Shown piece after piece: positions 8,368-20,394 of a DNA stretch of 33,702 bases. Source of the stretch: Fidelibacterota bacterium (GTDB taxonomy: Bacteria > Fidelibacterota > Marinisomatia > Marinisomatales > TCS56); NCBI GenBank assembly GCA_013203115.1, contig JABMQW010000139.1, forward strand, positions 1 through 33,702, in the 5' to 3' direction. The position numbers and the translations under genes were made by a program. The notes beneath the pieces are model-generated. The model saw only the letters and a program-made list of their open reading frames with translations. It searched no databases and was not told the DNA's origin. The stretch's first letter is position 1, and the number at the start of each line of letters is the position of its first letter.

Positions 8368-8423
8368 GCCGTCGGGATTTGAGCCATATTGCTCCGACGT
8401 TAAATAATGCAGCTAAAAAGGCC
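8368..8423 (+). promoter_or_regulatory. SAM-II riboswitch aptamer
   Basis: The sequence follows the SAM-II (metA-type) consensus that I recall from the crystallised environmental aptamer. P1 is a perfect 6-bp stem (CGTCGG 8370-8375 / CCGACG 8394-8399). Conserved GATTT opens loop 1, followed by CC.TATTGC, then TAAATAATGCAGCTAAAAAGG. The pseudoknot pairing appears as GCC (8383-8385) with GGC (8420-8422). P1 and this pairing differ from the reference but still pair (covariation). SAM-II binds S-adenosylmethionine through a compact H-type pseudoknot and lowers expression of methionine/SAM genes. Here it lies directly ahead of metH, metF, metK and ahcY. Confidence 0.94.
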
Positions 8424-8427
8424 AATC

Positions 8428-8451
8428 AGCCGGTTTAGCGCCGGCTTTTTT
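8428..8451 (+). terminator. Intrinsic terminator (attenuator) between SAM-II aptamer and metH
   Basis: AGCCGG (8428-8433), a 7-base loop and CCGGCT (8441-8446) run straight into six T. The hairpin begins 4 bases after the aptamer and the T-run ends 3 bases before the metH ATG. That suggests SAM-dependent transcription termination rather than, or as well as, masking of the ribosome-binding site. AGCC in aptamer loop 1 (8382-8385) could alternatively pair with the 3' arm GGCT, an antiterminator hypothesis. Confidence 0.8.
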
Positions 8452-8454
8452 ACT

Positions 8455-11400
8455 ATGCAGAACTTACGCGAAATACTAAAAAAAAGAATCCTGGTCCTGG
8501 ATGGGGCTATGGGCACGATGATTCAATCCTGTCATCTGCAAGAAACAGATTTTCGGGGTGAACTATTTGTTGATCATCCAGTAGATCTGCAGGGCAATAA
8601 TGATATTTTATCCCTGACAAAACCGGATTTAATCGAGTCAATCCATTATGACTATTTAAAAGCCGGGGCTGATATAATTGAAACCAACACTTTTAACGCC
8701 AATGCCATTTCTCAGCAGGATTTCCAACTTGGGGAACCAGTATACGATATGAATCTAACTGCTGCCAGGATTGCCTGTAAAGTTGCTGGTGAATTCACCA
8801 GACAGGAGCCGGATAAACCCCGGTTTGTGGCCGGTGTTTTGGGTCCCACCAATCGAACTGCATCGCTTTCCCCGGATGTGGAACGCCCTGAATACCGGAA
8901 TGTAAATTTTGATACTTTAAGCGATGCCTATGGTACTCAAGTCACGGCTCTAATAAAAGGCGGCGTAGATTTACTGCTGGTGGAGACGGTATTTGATACG
9001 CTTAATTGCAAAGCGGCATTATTTGCTATTCAAAATTATTTCTTTGAGCACGGGACATCGATACCGGTCATGGTTTCAGGTACGATAACCGATGCCAGTG
9101 GCCGGACTCTATCGGGGCAGACGCTGGAAGCATTCTGGAATTCGATTAGTCCTGCGGATCTTTTCTGCGTCGGTCTGAATTGCTCCCTGGGTGCTAAGGA
9201 GCTGCGACCATATATCCGTGAGTTATCGGAAATTGCCAATACACTAGTCTCGATTCATCCCAATGCCGGCTTGCCTAATGAATTAGGTGAATATGATGAG
9301 TCACCGGAAAATATGGCTGATTTAATTGACGAATTTGCTGAAAAGGGACAAGTCAATATTGTTGGTGGTTGTTGTGGAACAACACCAGCCCATATAACTT
9401 CTATTGCTGCCGCTGTCGCTGGAAAAGCGCCGCGTAAAGTCCCTGAAATTCCGCATTTTACTCGTCTTAGCGGACTGGAACCGTTGACCATCCAACCTGA
9501 TTCATTGTTTGTCAACATTGGGGAACGGACCAATATGGCTGGTTCAGCCCGCTTTGCTCGTTTAATTCGTGCAGATGATTACGAGCAAGCCTTGGAAGTG
9601 GCCCGCCAACAAATTGATAATGGTGCCCAGATTATTGATATCAATATGGACGATGCTATGCTGGATTCGGCGGCGGTGATGGAAATATTTCTGAATATGA
9701 TCGCTTCTGATCCCGGAATCAGTAAAGTACCGATAATGCTGGATTCATCCGATTGGAAAGTTCTGGAGGCAGGATTGAAATGCCTGCAGGGCAAGGGAAT
9801 TGTCAATTCGATCAGTTTGAAGGATGGTGAAGAAGTGTTTTTGCGGCGGGCGCAATTGGTCCGACGTTATGGTGCCGCCCTGATTGTGATGGCGTTTGAT
9901 GAAACCGGGCAGGCTGAAACTTACGAACGCAAAATTTCAATCTGCCGACGTGCTTACCGTTTATTAATCGATCAGGTTGGTTTTCCACCCCAGGATATTA
10001 TTTTTGATCCCAATATCTTTGCTATTGCAACCGGTATTGATATTCATAATACTTACGCCGTTGATTTCATATCAGCCTGTCGCACTATTAAACAGGAATA
10101 TCCCGAATCATTGATCAGTGGCGGGGTGAGTAACGTATCGTTTGCTTTCCGTGGAAATAATACCATCCGTGAGGCTATTCATTCGGTGTTTTTATACCAT
10201 GCCATTCAGGCCGGAATGGATATGGGGATAGTGAATGCGGGGCAGTTAGCGGTTTATGATGATTTGCCGGAAGAACTGCGTCAAGCAGTGGAAGACATGG
10301 TACTAAATAGACACCTGAAAGCCCTAGATCATTTAACCAATCTGGCTTTGAAGTATCAGAAAAACAGCAAGAAAATGGTCGCTGTTCGGGAATGGCGCAA
10401 TCAGCCGGTTGAGGAGCGGATAAAACATGCTCTAATTGAAGGATTAGCTGACGATATTGAAAACGATGTCGAAGAATTAAGGAAAAAATGGCAGCAGGCC
10501 TTATCAGTAATCGAAGGACCTTTAATGGACGCCCTGAAGGTTGTAGGTGATTTGTTCGGCGCCGGTAAAATGTTTCTTCCGCAAGTTATTAAGAGTGCCC
10601 GGGTGATGAAAAAAGCAGTGGCCTACTTAGTACCATTTGTTGAGCAAGAGCGCTTGCGGGCCGGCCGGGAATTACAGACCAAGGGGAAAATCCTGTTAGC
10701 AACTGTGAAAGGCGATGTGCATGATATCGGAAAAAATATCGTTGCCGTAGTATTAGGCTGCAATAATTACGATATCGTTGATCTGGGAGTAATGGTACCG
10801 GCCGAACGCATAATAGCAGAAGCTTATAAACACCAGGTTGATATAATAGGTTTAAGTGGACTGATAACGCCCTCGTTGGTGGAAATGACCAGACTTGCTC
10901 ATGATCTGGAGCAACAACAATCTCAAATTCCGGTATTGATTGGCGGTGCCACCACTTCCAAAATCCATACTGCCGTTAAAATTGATCCTGAATATTCCGG
11001 TCCGGTGATTCATGTAAACGATGCCTCGCGTAGCGTTGAAACAGTGAATAATCTATTGGATCACAAATCAAAGACAATATTTGTTAGATCTACAAAGGAG
11101 ACCTACCAGCAATTACGCCGTAATTATAAAAACCAGCGTAAAACCACTAACCTACTGACAATAGCTCAAGCCCGCCGGAATAGTTTTACTCCTGTTTGGG
11201 TGGATTATCAACCACCTGCACCGCGGATAAATGAGCGGCAGGTGTTCAAGCAATTTCCATTGGAAAAACTAACGCCCTATATCGATTGGACACCCTTTTT
11301 CCATGTGTGGGAATTAAAAGGTCGTTATCCGGTCATTTTAGATGATCCGCGATTCGGCCTGCAGGCACGTGAATTGCTTAAAAATGGACAAGCTTGGTTA

Positions 11401-12153
11401 GATCGAATTATTAATGAAAAATTAATCGAAGCACGTTCTGTAATGGAATTATTCCCGGCCAATTCACAAGGTGATGATATTTTGGTTTACGCAAGTGAAG
11501 CTCGTTCAACTCTGAAAACAAAAATATTCGGATTACGTCAACAAACTGAGCATAGTCCTGATAAACCATATTATTGCTTAAGCGATTTTATTGCTCCAGT
11601 CAGTACTGGTTTAGCTGATTGGATAGGAGCTTTTGTAGTCAGTACCGGTTTTGGTGTCCCGGATTTGGTTAGGCAGTTGCGAAGGGAAAATGATGAGTAT
11701 GCCAGTATCATTGTAAAAGCGCTGGCTGACCGTTTAGCGGAAGCTTTTGCCGAGTATCTGCATGAATTAGTACGCAAGGAATTATGGGGCTATGCTGCTG
11801 ATGAACAGTTCAGTCCTGAGGAATTACGAAAAGAAAACTATCGTGGTATCCGACCAGCGCCCGGATATCCAGCCTGCCCGGATCATTCCGAAAAACAATC
11901 CTTATTCAATCTGTTAGACGCAACTAGGGAAATTGGAACTGAATTGACAGAAAATTTTGCCATGCAACCGGCGGCTTCGGTCAGTGGTTGGTATCTGGCT
12001 CATCCACAAGCGCGCTATTTTTCGGTTGCTAAACTGGATCGGGACCAGATTAAGGATTACGCCGGACGTAAAGGAATGCCCGTGGCTGAAATCGAAAAAT
12101 TCTTAGTTGCAAATTTGGCTTACGAGCCGCCATCAGAACCGGAAGGATCATAA
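8455..12153 (+). CDS. metH: Cobalamin-dependent methionine synthase
   Basis: MetH transfers a methyl group from methyl-tetrahydrofolate to homocysteine via B12. The 1232-aa protein is full length with all modules. The homocysteine domain has zinc ligands Cys243, Cys306 and Cys307. The pterin-binding domain starts near residue 350 (FVNIGERTN). The B12 cap and domain carry DVHDIGKN with lower-ligand His756. The C-terminal AdoMet reactivation domain has [12 protein letters not shown] at 1133. These positions run 3-4 residues behind E. coli MetH. I chose ATG 8455 ([17 protein letters not shown]) because the family N-terminus begins there. The upstream in-frame ATG 8407 of the ORF track lies inside the riboswitch and would encode the terminator. 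No Shine-Dalgarno sits next to the start; AAGG in the aptamer is the nearest. Confidence 0.97.
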
Positions 12154-12175
12154 TAATTATGGCTATTTTTGAATT

Positions 12176-13120
12176 ATGAAAGTAATTGAACATATAAATC
12201 GCGCTCAGGCACCTTTGTTCAGTTTTGAAATTATTCCACCTCCGCGCGGCAAAAGTGCTCAGGAGATCATAGATATTGTTAAAATGCTGCAACCGTATCA
12301 ACCGCCCTATATTGACGTAACTAGCCACTCCGCCGAGGCAACATATGAAGAAAGACCTGATGGTACGATTAAGCGGCGTATCCGCAAGAAACGCCCCGGA
12401 ACGATCAGTATCTGTGGTATTATTCAGAATCGCTTCAAAATCGACACTGTTGCTCATTTATTATGTCGCGGGTTTAGTCAGGAAGAAACAGAAGATGCCC
12501 TGATTGAATTAAATTATTTGGGGATTGAAAATGTTCTGGCGGTGAGAGGTGATGAGACCAATTATAAAAAACCGTTGAGCAAGGATAGGAGCATTAATTT
12601 TTATACCAGTGATCTGGTTACGCAGGTTGACAAAATGAATCGGGGACAATATCTGGAGGAATTATTAAACGCTGAGCCGACTAATTTCTGTATTGGTGTG
12701 GGCGGTTATCCCGAGAAACATTTTGAAGCACCGAACCTTAAGACCGATGTAGAGCATTTAAAAACAAAAGTTAATGTCGGCGCTGAGTACGTGGTTACAC
12801 AGATGTTTTTTAATAACATGGTATATTTTGATTTTGTTGACCGTTGTCGGGCTGCCGGTATTGAAGTACCGATAATCCCGGGTATCAAAGTGTTGAATCA
12901 ACTGTCTCAATTGAAGAATATTCCCCGCAATTTTCATGTCGATTTGCCGGATGAACTGGTAGATGAAATTCGGGAAAACCCCAGCCATATAAAAGATATT
13001 GGCTTTGAATGGGCTTATCAGCAATGTGCTGAATTATTGAACCGTGGTATTAAAAATCTACATTTCTACATTATGAATGATGCCAGTGTGATAACCAGAA
13101 TTATTGATCGATTGAATTAA
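12176..13120 (+). CDS. metF: Methylenetetrahydrofolate reductase
   Basis: The 314-aa enzyme reduces 5,10-methylene-THF to 5-methyl-THF, the methyl donor for MetH encoded just upstream (22-base gap). Family marks are FSFEIIPP with Glu18 as the expected catalytic acid, VTSHSAEAT, VLAVRGDE, GVGGYPEKH, VTQMFFNN for FAD and folate contacts, and IIPGIKVL. It is a single catalytic domain of bacterial length, so it lacks the eukaryotic regulatory half. SAM feedback here probably acts at the riboswitch. No strong Shine-Dalgarno precedes the ATG, as often in FCB genomes. Confidence 0.96.
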   Translation: MKVIEHINRAQAPLFSFEIIPPPRGKSAQEIIDIVKMLQPYQPPYIDVTSHSAEATYEERPDGTIKRRIRKKRPGTISICGIIQNRFKIDTVAHLLCRGFSQEETEDALIELNYLGIENVLAVRGDETNYKKPLSKDRSINFYTSDLVTQVDKMNRGQYLEELLNAEPTNFCIGVGGYPEKHFEAPNLKTDVEHLKTKVNVGAEYVVTQMFFNNMVYFDFVDRCRAAGIEVPIIPGIKVLNQLSQLKNIPRNFHVDLPDELVDEIRENPSHIKDIGFEWAYQQCAELLNRGIKNLHFYIMNDASVITRIIDRLN

Positions 13121-13171
13121 AATCTTAAAACAAGCAAGAATTAATATGAATAATGAAACTGAGGAGTTAAT

Positions 13172-14347
13172 ATGAGTCGATTCTTATTTACATCAGAATC
13201 TGTTACTGAAGGACATCCCGATAAAGTGTGTGATGCAATTTCGGATGCTATCTTAGACGATTTATTACGCCAGGATCCCGATTCCCATGTGGCTTGTGAA
13301 ACACTCGCTACTAAAGGAATGGTCATCGTATCGGGCGAGGTGAGCACCAATGGTTTCGCGGAGGTAGAGGCGATTGTAAAGCGCACACTGGAGGAAATTG
13401 GTTATATCGATCAGGCCTACGGCATGGATAGAGATGAAGTACGAGTACTATCATTGTTGCATCAGCAAAGTGCTGATATTGCTCGGGGTGTTGAACGGGA
13501 TAAAGACCATGAACAAGGCGCCGGTGACCAGGGACTAATGTTTGGTTATGCCTGCCGGGAAACACCGGAACTAATGCCTTTACCAATTCAGTTAGCCCAA
13601 CAACTGACTGCACGTTTAGCTGAATTAAGGAAAAACGGAACCCTGGATTGGCTGCGCCCAGACGGGAAATCGCAGGTCACGGTGGAATATGATGGTGATA
13701 AACCAATCCGGATTGAAAAAGTAGTTATTGCAACCCAGCATGACGATTTGATGGATCGTTTCAGCAGTGAAGAAAAGGAACATGCCTTCATTTCAAGGGA
13801 GGTAATTAAACATATAATCAAACCGGTTTTGGATAAAACAGATTTACCCTACGAAAATAAATTTATTGTTAATGGAACCGGACGATTTGTAAAAGGCGGA
13901 CCGGATGCGGATACTGGTTTGACCGGCCGGAAGATAATCGTTGATACCTATGGTGGTTATGCTCCCCATGGTGGTGGTGCTTTCAGCGGGAAGGATCCCT
14001 CCAAAGTGGATCGATCCGGGACCTACATGGCGCGTTATATCGCCAAAAATATCGTAGCAGCCGGATTGGCTGACCGCTGCGAAATTCAGTTATCATACAG
14101 TATTGGTGTGGCTGAGCCGACATCTCTTAGCGTGCGGACATTTGGATCGGGAAAGTTGAGTAATGAGCGGATTACCGAAATTGTACAAGAAGTCTTTCCC
14201 TTGAAACCGCGTCAAATCATCGAGCACCTGCAATTGAAACAGCCCCGATATCGTAAAACAGCTGCCTATGGTCACTTTGGCCGAAATGGTGATAATTTCT
14301 CCTGGGAGAAAACAGACTTGGTAGATCGTTTGAAGACCTACCTGTAA
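13172..14347 (+). CDS. metK: S-adenosylmethionine synthetase
   Basis: MetK makes SAM from methionine and ATP. The 391-aa protein has the family motifs in order: GHPDKVCDAISDAILD (residues 14-29), GAGDQGLMFGYA (the hexapeptide region), GGGAFSGKDPSKVDRS and GVAEPTSL. A good ribosome site (GAGGAG, about 8 bases upstream) sets the ATG. It lies third in the SAM-II-controlled operon, so its own product can switch the transcript off. Length and motifs are normal. Confidence 0.98.
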   Translation: MSRFLFTSESVTEGHPDKVCDAISDAILDDLLRQDPDSHVACETLATKGMVIVSGEVSTNGFAEVEAIVKRTLEEIGYIDQAYGMDRDEVRVLSLLHQQSADIARGVERDKDHEQGAGDQGLMFGYACRETPELMPLPIQLAQQLTARLAELRKNGTLDWLRPDGKSQVTVEYDGDKPIRIEKVVIATQHDDLMDRFSSEEKEHAFISREVIKHIIKPVLDKTDLPYENKFIVNGTGRFVKGGPDADTGLTGRKIIVDTYGGYAPHGGGAFSGKDPSKVDRSGTYMARYIAKNIVAAGLADRCEIQLSYSIGVAEPTSLSVRTFGSGKLSNERITEIVQEVFPLKPRQIIEHLQLKQPRYRKTAAYGHFGRNGDNFSWEKTDLVDRLKTYL

Positions 14348-14361
14348 TAAGGAATTAAAAA

Positions 14362-15807
14362 ATGAGTGTAATTGAAAAACCACTGAAATCGGATGTGGAT
14401 TTATCCTATAAAGTAAAAGATATCAGTCTGGCGGATGCCGGACAAAAAGCCATTTCGATGGCTGAAAAAGAGATGCCGGGCCTGATGGCTATACGACGTA
14501 AGTACAGTGCGGATCAACCTCTGAAAGGTTTACGTGTCACCGGCTCCCTGCACATGACTGTAGAAACAGCCGTTCTCATCGAAACTTTATGTGATTTGGG
14601 TGCTGATGTTCGCTGGGCCAGTTGTAATATCTTTTCTACCCAGGATCATGCTGCCGCGGCTATTGCCACCCGGGGCATACCGGTCTTTGCCTGGAAAGGT
14701 GAAACACTGGATGAATACTGGTGGTGTACCCGTCAGGCGCTGACATTTCCGGGTAATAAAGGACCGCAATTAATCGTTGACGATGGCGGAGATGCTACCT
14801 TGCTGATTCACCGGGGAGCCGAACTGGAACGGGAGCTGGCTGAACAGGGCGAACTCGCTCCGGATAATTCCGAAAGCGGGGATGAAAAAGCCATAGCAGC
14901 CAATCTGCGGGATGCCCTGTTAACCGAACCGGATCACTGGCAGAATATTGTGAAGGATATTATCGGCGTATCCGAAGAAACGACGACCGGTGTCCACCGC
15001 TTGGAACAAATGGCCGCCGCCGGCAAATTATTATTTGCAGCGTACAACGTCAATGATTCAGTGACCAAATCAAAATTTGATAATGTTTATGGTTGCCGGG
15101 AATCTTTGGCGGATGGTATAAAACGCGCTACTGATGTCATGATCGCTGGTAAGACGATAGTTATCTGTGGCTATGGCGACGTAGGTCGTGGCTGTGCCCA
15201 ATCCATGCGGGGCTACGGCGCCAAAGTGCTGGTGACCGAGATTGATCCGATCTGTGCCTTGCAAGCCGCGATGGAGGGTTACCGGGTGGTTTCACTGGAG
15301 CAGAGCCTGGCAGAAGGCAATATTTTTGTCACTGCGACCGGCAATATCGACGTGATAACGCTCGAGCATATGGAACTGATGAATGACCAGTCAATTATTT
15401 GTAATATCGGTCATTTCGATAACGAAATTCAAGTGGAGCCGTTGAATGCAGCTCCCCAGGTCAAGCGTGAGACCATCAAACCCCAGGTTGATCGGTATAC
15501 ATTTCCCGATGGCCACCAGATTTTCATGCTGGCCGAGGGACGTCTGGTTAATCTCGGTTGTGCCACCGGCCATCCTAGCTTTGTCATGTCTAATTCCTTT
15601 ACCAATCAGATCTTGGCCCAGATGGCCCTGGCCAAGGACCGGCCTGAAATCGGCGTTTATCGATTACCGAAAGAACTGGACGAAGAAGTGGCCCGGTTGC
15701 ATCTCGATCATGTTGGTGTAACCTTGACTGAATTGACTGATGAACAAGCGGAATACCTGGGAATACCAAAGGGCGGTCCCTATAAATCAGAGCATTACCG
15801 GTATTAA
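14362..15807 (+). CDS. ahcY: S-adenosylhomocysteine hydrolase
   Basis: AhcY splits SAH, the product inhibitor left by methyltransferases, into adenosine and homocysteine, returning homocysteine to MetH. The 481-aa protein shows [24 protein letters not shown], the NAD-binding [24 protein letters not shown], and the C-terminal PYKSEHYRY tail that reaches the neighbouring subunit's cofactor site. The length fits the longer family form with an insertion near residues 150-190. AAGG lies upstream of the ATG. It starts 14 bases after metK, and the operon terminator follows. Having ahcY instead of Pfs/LuxS fixes this organism's SAH recycling route in this operon. Confidence 0.98.
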
Positions 15808-15976: not shown

Positions 15977-18934
15977 ATGAAAATATTTAGGAAGAAAAAA
16001 AGCATAATAAAACAGGTAATATTAATAACAGCTTTATTATTAATCATACTTGCGGTCAGTTGTGATTTTCAAAGTCCGGCCAGTTTTGAAATGCCGACCT
16101 GGTTCATGGATTTGACCATTCCATTAATTCAGGAACGCTATCCATTGGCCGGGATTGTCGACAGTACGCAGATTTTTGTCACGTCTGATTCCCTTGGCAT
16201 GCAGATAATGTTTAGTGACACCCTCGATAAGATTGCCATCGATGCATCCTATCTGGAAGTAAAGCTTAACCAGGATATCGCCTTTACCCAGGATCCGATT
16301 TATCTACCGGAAATGGCGTTCGTATTTGATACGCTGATCATTATCGAAATTCCATTTGCCCCAAATAATAAATTTATTGATGTTGCACTGGATACTTTCG
16401 ATGTCCCCCCGGCAGTCGACCGCGAGATCTTCGCATCAACCTGGAACCAAATCGCATCTGCTTTTGATACATCAATTTTCCTGGAAATTAATATTCCCCA
16501 AGTAGATGAATCGGTTTTACCGGAGTTTATTACCTCAGTAGATGCTGTTGTAATTAGTGGTGACAGTGAAACAGACTCCAGTGTGTTTGCCACCAGCCTG
16601 ATAAATAATGGACTGCCGACTGCGGTCAAGGATGTTGAATTCAGTCTAATCACCGATCTGGACAGTCCCAATGATTCACTGGCTGGTCATTCCTGCAACC
16701 GCGTACTAAAAGACAGCACATTCTCCAAGCATACGCTGATTGGTGATAAGCAGCTCGGTTCAAAAATCAGGATGAATTTTGGTTTTAGTCTCGAAACAGA
16801 AACGGCATTGGATACTATACTGATCAATGCCGGCGATTCGGTAAAAGTAAATCTGTCGTTCCGGATCAGGATCGCTGGTGTCGATGAAGCGGTGGTTCAG
16901 ATCAGTGAATATGATCTTTCGCCTGAGATACCAGTCGTGGAGTTCCCTTCGGACATCCAAATCTACTCCGGCGTCTTCAAAACCGGAACCTGGGCTGGAA
17001 TCAATGAAATAGTCGTATCCGACCTGCAGAGTACTTACATCTTTGACATTGATTTTGTTATGAATTTCCGCAACTTCATGCCTCCTGAGGGTGAAGATTC
17101 GGTAAAAATTGAAACAGTCCTCAGCCGTGACAGCAGCGCTTACGGCCGGACCTTTGATATCGATGGCTATACTTTCGCCAATCCCGCCGGAGCCGACAGC
17201 GCTCTGGAATCCCTCATTATTGATGTATCAGCAGTGATTCAACATCAGACGGCCACAATTCCCCTGGATGGATCGGAATTCGGGCGCATGAGCCTTGGGG
17301 TTCAGGTCGATGAACTGCATTTTGCGTCTATGAATGTATACCTGACAGAGGAATTCCCGCCCAGCGAACAGGAAATTACCGGCATGCCGCAGGGTTTCTC
17401 AGGGATGGCATTTACCGATGTAAATATAACTTTTATTATAATGAGTTCTATCCAGCTTCCGGTATCAATTGACCTAGACTTTATCGGGGTAAACACCTTC
17501 GGTGATTCGGTAATTGTTCGTGTCATATCAAAGGTTGGAAATCCTGATACCTATGGTGATTCAGTAAAAACAGCGATACTATTAAACCGCAATGGGACAA
17601 CTACGACTATCTACGTACGAAACAGCGATACTGAAATTGACAGTGTAATCACTGATGACAGTGGTGAGTTCACCATTGTGGATTTGCTATCATCTAATCC
17701 GGAAGACCTAATAATCAATTCATCTGCCAAGATAGATGGTGAACGTGGTGATCTTATCCCCGGTGCTTCTATCGGTTTCAGCTATGAACTCACAGCGCCG
17801 CTCGAGGTGAAAATGGCGCCTATGACTTTTATACCGGTCAATGAATCGCCCTTGGAAGAATGGGATTATGAATTGCGTAATAAGATTCGCAGCGGACTTC
17901 GCAGTGCTTCAGCCGTAGCCCGGGTAATCAATCATTTTCCGGTCGGAGGAGAGATATCCATTCTGCTGTCTGATCAGAGTCATTTTCCCCTTGATCTGAG
18001 CCGGAAAAATCTGGATAGCCTGGCTATTGATCTGGGAATTGATATTTCCACCGGTGACAGTCTCTACGTGATCAATGAATGTTCCAGTCTGGATCCAGCG
18101 CTGGGGACCGATTCAACCGCGATTTATATATTCAACGTGATGTCTGATTTTAGTGAATGCGTGGATGGGGTCACCTATTTTATCCGCAGTTCCGCTTCCG
18201 GTACCGATACGGTCATGACTTATGTGGATACGCTGCTGAATATTGTGTTGCCCGATCCGCTGCTGATTAACTATGACTCGGATATTGATGACCGGCGACT
18301 CGTAGAAAACCCCGGCGATATCGTCAGCATCAGTGAAATCGATCCCGATAAAATCCGTTTAATGACCAGCCTCGGTAATCATTATACCACTCCCCGGATT
18401 CATCTGAACGGTTCACCAATTGATCCCATTACCGGCGATACGCTATCTGTCTTTCTCTCGATCAATGACTATGTTGAGATTAAATCTTTTCTGACCTTTG
18501 AGATTAGTAGTACCGGTGTCATGGAACCGGCTCCGGGAGAATTGGTCATGATTTATCCCAATGGTGGTGAATCGCTGAATGTGCTGGAGTTGATAACCAT
18601 CCGTTGGCGAACTTTCGGTAAGGTGAAAAATGTCAATCTTGATTATTCGATAGTAACCGATCCGGATATTGAAAATGACCAGGATTGGACAGCGCTGGAA
18701 TCGAACTGGACGGCAATTGCCAACGTGGATTCATTTGTTTGGGATGCAAATACTGAGTTCCCGAATATTCCCAGCCTGCAACGCGACAGCATACGTATCC
18801 GTGTTTCGGATGCCGGGTCGGATATCAGTGATATGAGCGGCTGGTATTTTACTTTGAAGCAAGTATTGCGCTCCTTTAGTAGCGGTTGTACCAGTGCCGC
18901 CGCTGCCGGATCAAACCGGGGAGAGAGCCGCTGA
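15977..18934 (+). CDS. Large uncharacterised surface lipoprotein with C-terminal PNGGE Ig-like module
   Basis: I do not recognise a function. The 985-aa product begins with Lys/Arg residues, a hydrophobic helix and a lipobox ending LAVSC, so Cys29 is the probable lipidated residue after LspA cleavage. The rest is rich in Asp, Ser, Thr and beta-branched residues with few Cys, suggesting a chain of beta-sandwich modules. A recognisable module near the C-terminus begins LVMIYPNGGESLN and continues ITIRW (about residues 855-955), an Ig-like fold common in secreted FCB proteins. The last 18 residues (Ser/Ala/Gly/Arg-rich) do not resemble a known sorting tail. Its stop overlaps the start of the barrel gene (TGATG), suggesting the two act together at the outer membrane. 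The start is ATG 15977, set by the signal sequence. Confidence 0.85.
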   Translation: MKIFRKKKSIIKQVILITALLLIILAVSCDFQSPASFEMPTWFMDLTIPLIQERYPLAGIVDSTQIFVTSDSLGMQIMFSDTLDKIAIDASYLEVKLNQDIAFTQDPIYLPEMAFVFDTLIIIEIPFAPNNKFIDVALDTFDVPPAVDREIFASTWNQIASAFDTSIFLEINIPQVDESVLPEFITSVDAVVISGDSETDSSVFATSLINNGLPTAVKDVEFSLITDLDSPNDSLAGHSCNRVLKDSTFSKHTLIGDKQLGSKIRMNFGFSLETETALDTILINAGDSVKVNLSFRIRIAGVDEAVVQISEYDLSPEIPVVEFPSDIQIYSGVFKTGTWAGINEIVVSDLQSTYIFDIDFVMNFRNFMPPEGEDSVKIETVLSRDSSAYGRTFDIDGYTFANPAGADSALESLIIDVSAVIQHQTATIPLDGSEFGRMSLGVQVDELHFASMNVYLTEEFPPSEQEITGMPQGFSGMAFTDVNITFIIMSSIQLPVSIDLDFIGVNTFGDSVIVRVISKVGNPDTYGDSVKTAILLNRNGTTTTIYVRNSDTEIDSVITDDSGEFTIVDLLSSNPEDLIINSSAKIDGERGDLIPGASIGFSYELTAPLEVKMAPMTFIPVNESPLEEWDYELRNKIRSGLRSASAVARVINHFPVGGEISILLSDQSHFPLDLSRKNLDSLAIDLGIDISTGDSLYVINECSSLDPALGTDSTAIYIFNVMSDFSECVDGVTYFIRSSASGTDTVMTYVDTLLNIVLPDPLLINYDSDIDDRRLVENPGDIVSISEIDPDKIRLMTSLGNHYTTPRIHLNGSPIDPITGDTLSVFLSINDYVEIKSFLTFEISSTGVMEPAPGELVMIYPNGGESLNVLELITIRWRTFGKVKNVNLDYSIVTDPDIENDQDWTALESNWTAIANVDSFVWDANTEFPNIPSLQRDSIRIRVSDAGSDISDMSGWYFTLKQVLRSFSSGCTSAAAAGSNRGESR

Positions 18935-20394
18935 TGAGTACTAAATTTATCCGGCTGGTCGTACTTGGTTGCATTATCTCAATGTCCCTGTTTGGTCAGT
19001 CGAAGCGCGATCCCCGTGTGGTTGGTTTGGCCGGGGCTTATGGTTCAGTTGCCGATGGTATTTTCGCTGTTGGGTATAATCCAGCCCTGCTGGCCTTGCA
19101 ACAGGATAAGCCCTTTATGCTGCAATTGGTTGGTATCGATTTTGGTATAGTCAGCAATTATATCTCACTCGGTAATCTGAATGAGATCAGTGGTGATACA
19201 TTGACCTCTGCCGATACCGATCTGATATTGCGTGAACTGGATCGCAGTGGGGGCTTACGATTGTTTACTGACTTGCACCTGCCCCTTCCGATAATGAATT
19301 TTGCTTCCGGCAACATGGCCCTGACTTCCAATATGGTAATTCTTGGCGATGTAACAATTCCTACTGGAATTATGGGTCTGTTACTGAAGGGTAATGGTGC
19401 CTATCTGACCGAAGAAATTGACATGACCCTCAAGCTGGACCTATTAGGTGTTAATGAATTCGGTTTCTCGTTTGCCATTCCGAGTACGGATTTTGCCTGG
19501 GGAATGACACTGAAATATTTGCAGGGTTTGTTTTATTTCGGAATTGATCCTGATTCAAGTTCCGCCTTTATGATTACCGACACCACCGCACTGTACGGTA
19601 GTGGTACCTATTATTTCAGGCAGGGAATCGGAGGCAGTGGTCTGGGACTGGATATCGGCTTTTGCACCAAGGATTTGGATGGCTGGCGGGTTGGGGTTTC
19701 GATGATAAATGCTTTGGGCAAAATCAACTGGAACCGCCCTAGTTTTATAAAAGATATCATGGCTGGTAGCGATAATCAATATGGCAATTCAGACGATCTA
19801 TTTCATTTATCCTGGGGTGGTATAGCCTTAAATGATAGTAATGCAGTCCGTTATATTTATACGATTGATACCTTGAACGCTCAGACTATGTCTAGCGATT
19901 CCTTGTTTTATTCTAATCCAACTGATGAACAGGTGGTTTATGACCTCACTGCCGATGGAAAACTGAAACAATTTTCCACCCGCTATCCGGCTCTGTTCAG
20001 GATTTCGGTTTCCAAACGATTCCCGGATGTATTAGTTGTCTCCGATTTAGTAGCCGGGTTCGAAGACCGCTTCTTTGTCCGTGATCGCTGGCGTTGGTCG
20101 ATTGGGGCGGAATTACTACGCAATCCCGCATTCCCGATCAGGTTTGGCTATTCCTGGGCCGGTTATGATTTCAAAGAGTTGGGGATGGGTTTCGGCGTGC
20201 ACAAGGGACCGATCATTTTTGACTTTGGGCTGGCATTTAGAAATGGACTCTGGATCCATTCCATGAAAGGGGTGAATATATCACTCGGTGTAACCATTAC
20301 CAGTTTTAAGAGTCGCAAGGAAACCCCGCCGGAGCCGGGTGCTGTAGAAGAGCCAATCATTCTGCCACCGGACACTAACGATAATCAGAACTGA
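18934..20394 (+). CDS. FadL/PorV-like outer-membrane beta-barrel protein (DUF5723-like)
   Basis: The 486-aa product has a signal peptide (MSTKFIRLVVLGCIISMSLFGQ, cut near residue 20-21) followed by DPRVVGLAGAYGSVADGIFAVGYNPALLAL. This is the N-terminal plug-like motif of the FadL/PorV/UPF0164 group of barrels. The remainder alternates short aromatic beta-strands with Gly/Asp turns. The Pro/Glu-rich tail (EPIILPPDTNDNQN) is not a barrel-ending strand. I moved the start from 18886 to ATG 18934 because the signal peptide begins there and GGAGAG lies upstream. Relatives carry hydrophobic cargo or act as type IX secretion shuttles; neither role can be shown here. Translational coupling with the lipoprotein argues for a joint outer-membrane complex. 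Confidence 0.82.
   Translation: MSTKFIRLVVLGCIISMSLFGQSKRDPRVVGLAGAYGSVADGIFAVGYNPALLALQQDKPFMLQLVGIDFGIVSNYISLGNLNEISGDTLTSADTDLILRELDRSGGLRLFTDLHLPLPIMNFASGNMALTSNMVILGDVTIPTGIMGLLLKGNGAYLTEEIDMTLKLDLLGVNEFGFSFAIPSTDFAWGMTLKYLQGLFYFGIDPDSSSAFMITDTTALYGSGTYYFRQGIGGSGLGLDIGFCTKDLDGWRVGVSMINALGKINWNRPSFIKDIMAGSDNQYGNSDDLFHLSWGGIALNDSNAVRYIYTIDTLNAQTMSSDSLFYSNPTDEQVVYDLTADGKLKQFSTRYPALFRISVSKRFPDVLVVSDLVAGFEDRFFVRDRWRWSIGAELLRNPAFPIRFGYSWAGYDFKELGMGFGVHKGPIIFDFGLAFRNGLWIHSMKGVNISLGVTITSFKSRKETPPEPGAVEEPIILPPDTNDNQN

Follow-up and report, generated by a model that had tools for sequence, protein, structure and literature searches.

Gene pair at the locus

The window, the whole analysed stretch of 33,702 nucleotides, derives from a member of Candidatus Neomarinimicrobiota (Marinimicrobia), a phylum of mostly uncultured marine bacteria, and its forward strand carries a lipoprotein gene and an outer-membrane barrel gene with the following features.

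15977..18934, + strand: lipoprotein of 985 aa, type A of a new family; the signal peptide comprises residues 1-28
16061..16102, + strand: lipidated Cys29 and the N-terminal tail CDFQxPxxFExPTW, residues 29-42 (alignment of orthologs, paralogs)
17264..18121, + strand: core common to the paralogous lipoproteins, residues 430-715 (profile comparison)
18518..18871, + strand: C-terminal PNGGE module, putative Kre9/KNH-like Ig domain, approximately residues 848-965, conserved in type A
18872..18931, + strand: disordered, variable C-terminal tail, residues 966-985, not conserved
18918..18927, + strand: GGGGAGAGAG, predicted ribosome-binding site of the barrel gene, within the lipoprotein reading frame
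18932..18936, + strand: TGATG, lipoprotein stop and barrel start, one-base overlap
18934..20394, + strand: outer-membrane barrel of 486 aa with a FadL fold, DUF5723 family
19003..19011, + strand: K24-R25-D26, just past the predicted signal peptide, invariant in 21 aligned type-A barrels
19078..19086, + strand: NPA motif of the FadL/PorV superfamily, residues 49-51

Both reading frames of the initial annotation are present and its TGATG junction holds. The program-made barrel frame begins at TTG 18886, but the true start is ATG 18934, with GGGGAGAGAG upstream at 18918-18927, and it is from this start that the one-base TGA/ATG overlap follows. The RNA fold of the junction is unremarkable (z -0.8). 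The short Ser/Ala/Gly/Arg tail of the lipoprotein, earlier regarded as unusual, coincides with the ribosome-binding region of the barrel gene, varies freely among orthologs, is missing in one of them (L064) and is modelled as disordered (pLDDT 34-38); it was therefore rejected as a functional element.

The pair is preceded by metH, metF, metK and ahcY, and at its 3' end lies an LptF/G permease gene on the opposite strand. The four upstream genes form a complete activated methyl cycle cluster (window 8407-15807) directly 5' of the pair; in most of the order metK and ahcY keep this place, while metH and metF are often absent there. In other families of the phylum an uncharacterised exported protein of about 630 aa, absent from the window, adjoins LptF/G at the same locus (L145:8630-10504, L146:7804-9744, L151:7032-8927, L142:228-2162).

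Conservation and co-inheritance of the pair

Lipoprotein and barrel genes are coupled and inherited together: they are conserved as a pair across the phylum and have been duplicated jointly, which agrees with the coupling proposed earlier. Within the order, the lipoprotein was found in 69 of 101 genomes and the barrel likewise in 69 of 101, and a profile search of 245 genomes from the whole phylum detected the lipoprotein family in 187, among them 82 of the 94 of high quality. The barrel lies immediately 3' of the lipoprotein in all 78 loci, which were cut out around matches, and equally in all 41 loci that had been picked via the lipoprotein alone (the window, L055-L074 and L117-L136). With the nearest start codon used, so that the spacings are lower bounds, the barrel starts between -17 and +13 nt from the lipoprotein stop in 76/78 loci and at -4 in 40 of them. 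The neighbours are less constant than the pair: where one or more of metK, ahcY and lptF-G lie nearby (53 loci), 47 loci have ahcY directly 5', 43 have metK in the vicinity and 46 have lptF-G there, some of the losses being contig ends. Furthermore, lipoprotein and barrel tree distances correlate across 27 loci (r = 0.90), also when MetK and LptF/G are taken into account (partial r = 0.65, permutation p 0.0005). Neither gene was found on plasmids. At two loci (G010:C5:204709-207547 and L104:5956-8911) the lipoprotein frame is split into two to three overlapping or adjoining frames behind which the barrel is intact, representing either an assembly error or a pseudogene.

The pair is absent from f15, a family with streamlined genomes (about 0.4-1.0 Mb) that keeps LptF/G; the f15 genomes tested also retain LptD, for which LptD_2 was the right model (PF04453 gave almost nothing), and SprA. 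Neither LPS export nor type IX secretion thus requires the pair, and it cannot be needed for every large outer-membrane protein. One f15 locus (L137:5187-9524), where the lipoprotein pair is lost, carries a 349-aa PorV-like barrel behind a 1089-aa exported protein.

Paralogous cassettes

The family comprises at least two ancient paralogous cassettes, one of the window type at the metK-ahcY/lptF-G locus and another elsewhere. The genome of the window also holds the second type (G000:C109, locus L035), whose barrel scores higher for DUF5723 (E 5e-28) and whose lipoprotein is homologous to that of the window (profile-profile E 6e-19, probability 99). Across the phylum, all profile-recognised cassette barrels have a lipoprotein in front with two exceptions, namely L145, where one barrel precedes the lipoprotein to give the order barrel-lipoprotein-barrel, and L051, where a PorV-like barrel has another neighbour. 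Tandem lipoprotein-barrel-lipoprotein-barrel arrays follow ahcY in family f29 (L141:3685-10474 and L140:2002-8308), and the cassette barrels of L148, L149, L152 and L156 (619-659 aa) have about 190-260 additional amino acids N-terminal of the FadL-like part.

Anatomy and predicted location of the lipoprotein

The protein has the signal peptide and lipobox of a bacterial lipoprotein, with Cys29 invariant in 21 aligned orthologs. The CDFQxPxxFExPTW tail is conserved; paralogs retain the Cys and mostly also the PxW motif, and the core (residues 430-715) is common to all lipoproteins of the family. All nine type-B lipoproteins carry four tandem repeats, each of about 133 aa, between the conserved lipidated N-terminus and the conserved C-terminal core, the f8 form (about 680-700 aa) carries two, and in the f13 form (about 365 aa) no repeats are detectable; the arm between the fixed ends thus varies in length by whole modules.

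When the lipoprotein, its repeats, its core and its C-terminal module were compared at sequence level with Pfam, NCBIfam, PHROGs and PDB, only the C-terminal module found a match. The Ig-like PNGGE module of the initial annotation appears to be Kre9/KNH-like (PF10342 in 9/25 family members, best E 7e-5); the copy in the window is by itself unmatched. No Pfam or NCBIfam family covers the whole protein, which falls into no known unrelated family and stands outside known families, as had been supposed; single weak matches to DUF3712, DUF7693, MlaD and KdpC were taken as chance. In the AlphaFold model (mean pLDDT 86.7, pTM 0.57) the domains are confident and their arrangement is uncertain. Its closest fold match is BDI_1231 of Parabacteroides distasonis (PDB 4h3w; probability 1.00, E about 1e-4), an uncharacterised secreted protein of 313 residues as against 985 aa here, with a TM-score of 0.5 on its own length, an rmsd of 10 A and 11% identity. 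BamH was not among the best 50 PDB matches listed for the model.

Two weak signs suggest that the lipoprotein is located on the cell surface, namely the Ig-type C-terminal module and an enrichment of D-[ST]-hydrophobic sites, the O-glycosylation motif of Bacteroidota. There are 22 such sites against 7.5 expected, about threefold, and across 68 members 18.7 against 6.4 expected; five predicted cytoplasmic proteins of the window show no such enrichment. The excess of sites could also stem from beta-turn composition. The Bacteroidota surface-export rule, at least two acidic residues in the six after the Cys, describes 27 of 64 lipoproteins, and the window copy has one acidic residue.

The barrel belongs to the FadL/PorV superfamily

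The window barrel matches DUF5723 (PF18990) with E 4e-12 and 46.9 bits, above the curated cut-off of 26.8, as do 54 of 59 members of the barrel family. It also matches TraF_2 (E 7.5e-4) and stays below the threshold of the PorV/PorQ profile NF033709 (27.9 bits, cut-off 90). In a Foldseek search the AlphaFold model (pLDDT 88.1, pTM 0.83) retrieved FadL, TodX, BamG and PorV at probability 1.00, and CymD was also found; the best fold matches include BamG chains from three Bacteroidota BAM structures (9n2d_B, 9hjm_F and 9hiv_F). In a profile search of PDB sequences, TbuX (E 0.011), PorV (0.41) and CymD (0.44) came closest, and no BamG chain was matched at E 10. Together with the NPA motif at residue 49, the fold places the protein in the FadL/PorV superfamily, in agreement with the FadL/PorV-like barrel originally described.

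Possible function of the pair

In Bacteroidota, the FadL-family barrel BamG binds the BamA barrel at its back and serves as the anchor of BamH, a surface lipoprotein that wedges its conserved N-terminal tail into or against BamG (PMC12611786, PMC12578637). The paralogs BamG2-BamH2 constitute a putative operon (PMC12578637, PMC12611786), BT1786, annotated as DUF4270, being BamH2 (PMC10434189, PMC12578637).

We consider the Neomarinimicrobiota pair to be an undescribed, phylum-wide and duplicated outer-membrane module, for which a surface scaffold held by a FadL-fold anchor is the likeliest reading and transport the foremost alternative. The two-part outer-membrane machine of the initial annotation stays the best reading of its inferred function, and the lipoprotein belongs to no described family. 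Its suggestion of an undescribed system also stands; no published description of the pair was found, and the literature collection searched held no paper on DUF5723 or on lipoproteins of Neomarinimicrobiota/Marinimicrobia. Tentatively, we propose that both proteins bind each other in one outer-membrane complex, a lipoprotein scaffold docked on the FadL-fold barrel and working like BamG-BamH. The DUF5723 barrel would serve as the membrane anchor and the lipoprotein as its obligate partner, with the lipid anchor and the conserved N-terminal tail packing against the barrel and the body standing on the cell surface as a long arm rich in beta structure. Such a module may be a housekeeping scaffold or canopy that takes part in assembling surface or outer-membrane proteins, rather than a substrate importer. 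Conservation of the N-terminal tail and core while the repeats vary fits an arm docked at its anchor end, and the near-universal presence outside streamlined genomes, which parallels that of BamG, missing in endosymbiotic Bacteroidota, argues for a BamGH-like scaffold. Against it count the two defining features of BamG-BamH that the pair lacks, its loss from f15 genomes that keep LptD, LptF/G and SprA, the want of a known BAM subunit among the neighbours and the number of lipoproteins with the acidic export signal (27 of 64), as well as the short, FadL-length N-terminus of the barrel, with which a transport path is still conceivable.

Transport of hydrophobic substrates or lipids, with the barrel as an open FadL-type channel for which the lipoprotein captures or relays substrate, is the alternative to be weighed first, although we regard it as rather unlikely. 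It would account for TbuX, PorV and CymD as the nearest profile matches, for FadL and TodX leading the fold matches together with BamG, and for the want of the N-terminal extension that fills the lateral gate in BamG; however, its near-universal occurrence in the phylum and its constant place at a housekeeping locus set the pair apart from a niche uptake gene, genes for catabolism or fatty acids do not adjoin it, and classical FadL channels are not known to need a lipoprotein partner. That the two proteins are BamG and BamH orthologs diverged beyond sequence search is improbable. The BamG chains among the best fold matches would agree with it, as would the report by Liu et al. (PMC12611786) that, of the seven other FCB phyla they considered, six have BamG and BamH, but DUF4270 (PF14092) was found in 0/61 genomes of relatives even at E 1, while the positive control matched in Bacteroides, and the barrel profile missed BamG. 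Furthermore, the N-terminal extension of BamG (about 10-12 residues beyond FadL) is absent, NPA standing at residue 49 as against 58 in E. coli FadL, though another FadL-like barrel of the same genome (G000:C135) has a longer N-terminus. The lack of DUF4270 and of the extension is the reason why the pair is not classified as BamGH and is proposed only to work like it.

A part in type IX secretion, of the PorV-PorU or PorQ-PorZ kind, is quite improbable: the barrel does belong to the PorV superfamily and SprA occurs in 59/61 relatives, but f15 genomes have SprA and a PorV-like barrel without the pair, and separate PorV-like barrels of about 350 aa exist in these genomes. Least probable of all is an LPS-export accessory tied to the neighbouring LptF/G gene, which points towards the cassette in 46 of 53 loci with metK, ahcY or lptF-G nearby; this gene is convergent and not co-transcribed with the pair, the second cassette type is located elsewhere, and f15 has LptF/G and LptD without the pair.

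Comparison with known two-part systems

SusC-SusD, to which the pair had been likened, proved a poor comparison: there too barrel and lipoprotein share one operon, but the barrel type differs and the lipoprotein is unrelated. SusD occurs in 22/61 relatives, not in the genome of the window, and shows no correlation with the pair. PorV-PorU and PorV-SprA likewise join a FadL/PorV-superfamily barrel to a large exported protein. The proposed parallel to PorU-PorV holds for the barrel fold alone; the partner in the window is a lipoprotein in which no protease domain is recognised (no Pfam match), and BamH-BamG is closer. The channels FadL, TodX, TbuX and CymD have the barrel fold and the NPA motif in common with the window barrel, and are not known to have an obligate lipoprotein partner.

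The nearest precedent is BamG-BamH of the Bacteroidota BAM complex. Both systems have a FadL-fold outer-membrane barrel, a lipoprotein with a conserved N-terminal tail and paralogous copies, and both are common throughout their own phylum and lost in reduced genomes, those of endosymbiotic Bacteroidota in the case of BamG. In contrast to BamG-BamH, the lipoprotein and barrel genes are always adjacent in the Neomarinimicrobiota pair; the lipoprotein is not DUF4270, unlike BamH2, is much longer than BamH and in type B is built of repeats, the barrel is DUF5723 without the N-terminal extension, and no known BAM subunits were found among the neighbouring genes. Elsewhere in the genome of the window (L161:1068-3535, contig G000:C135) and at L164:5671-8351, the different FadL-like barrel with a longer N-terminus (Toluene_X) mentioned above lies directly 3' of a lipoprotein of 353-430 aa, with strong matches in some genomes of the phylum only; as a candidate for a genuine BamG-type pair it is more promising than the pair described here.

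The latter might, as a conjecture that we hold with some reserve, represent a third class of machine made of a FadL-fold barrel and a lipoprotein beside the PorV systems and BamGH, ancestral to Neomarinimicrobiota, in which each genome uses two or more parallel cassettes to make surface arms that differ in length, possibly as an extension of the BAM complex peculiar to this phylum. With its naturally occurring forms of four, two or no repeats, the family offers material for testing the working of such canopies. If the conjecture is true, a deep-branching FCB phylum would possess a two-part outer-membrane machine of its own, a counterpart to the BamG-BamH extension described for Bacteroidota in 2025, and the FadL-type barrel with a lipoprotein arm would be a general FCB theme of cell-surface building and not a Bacteroidota speciality.
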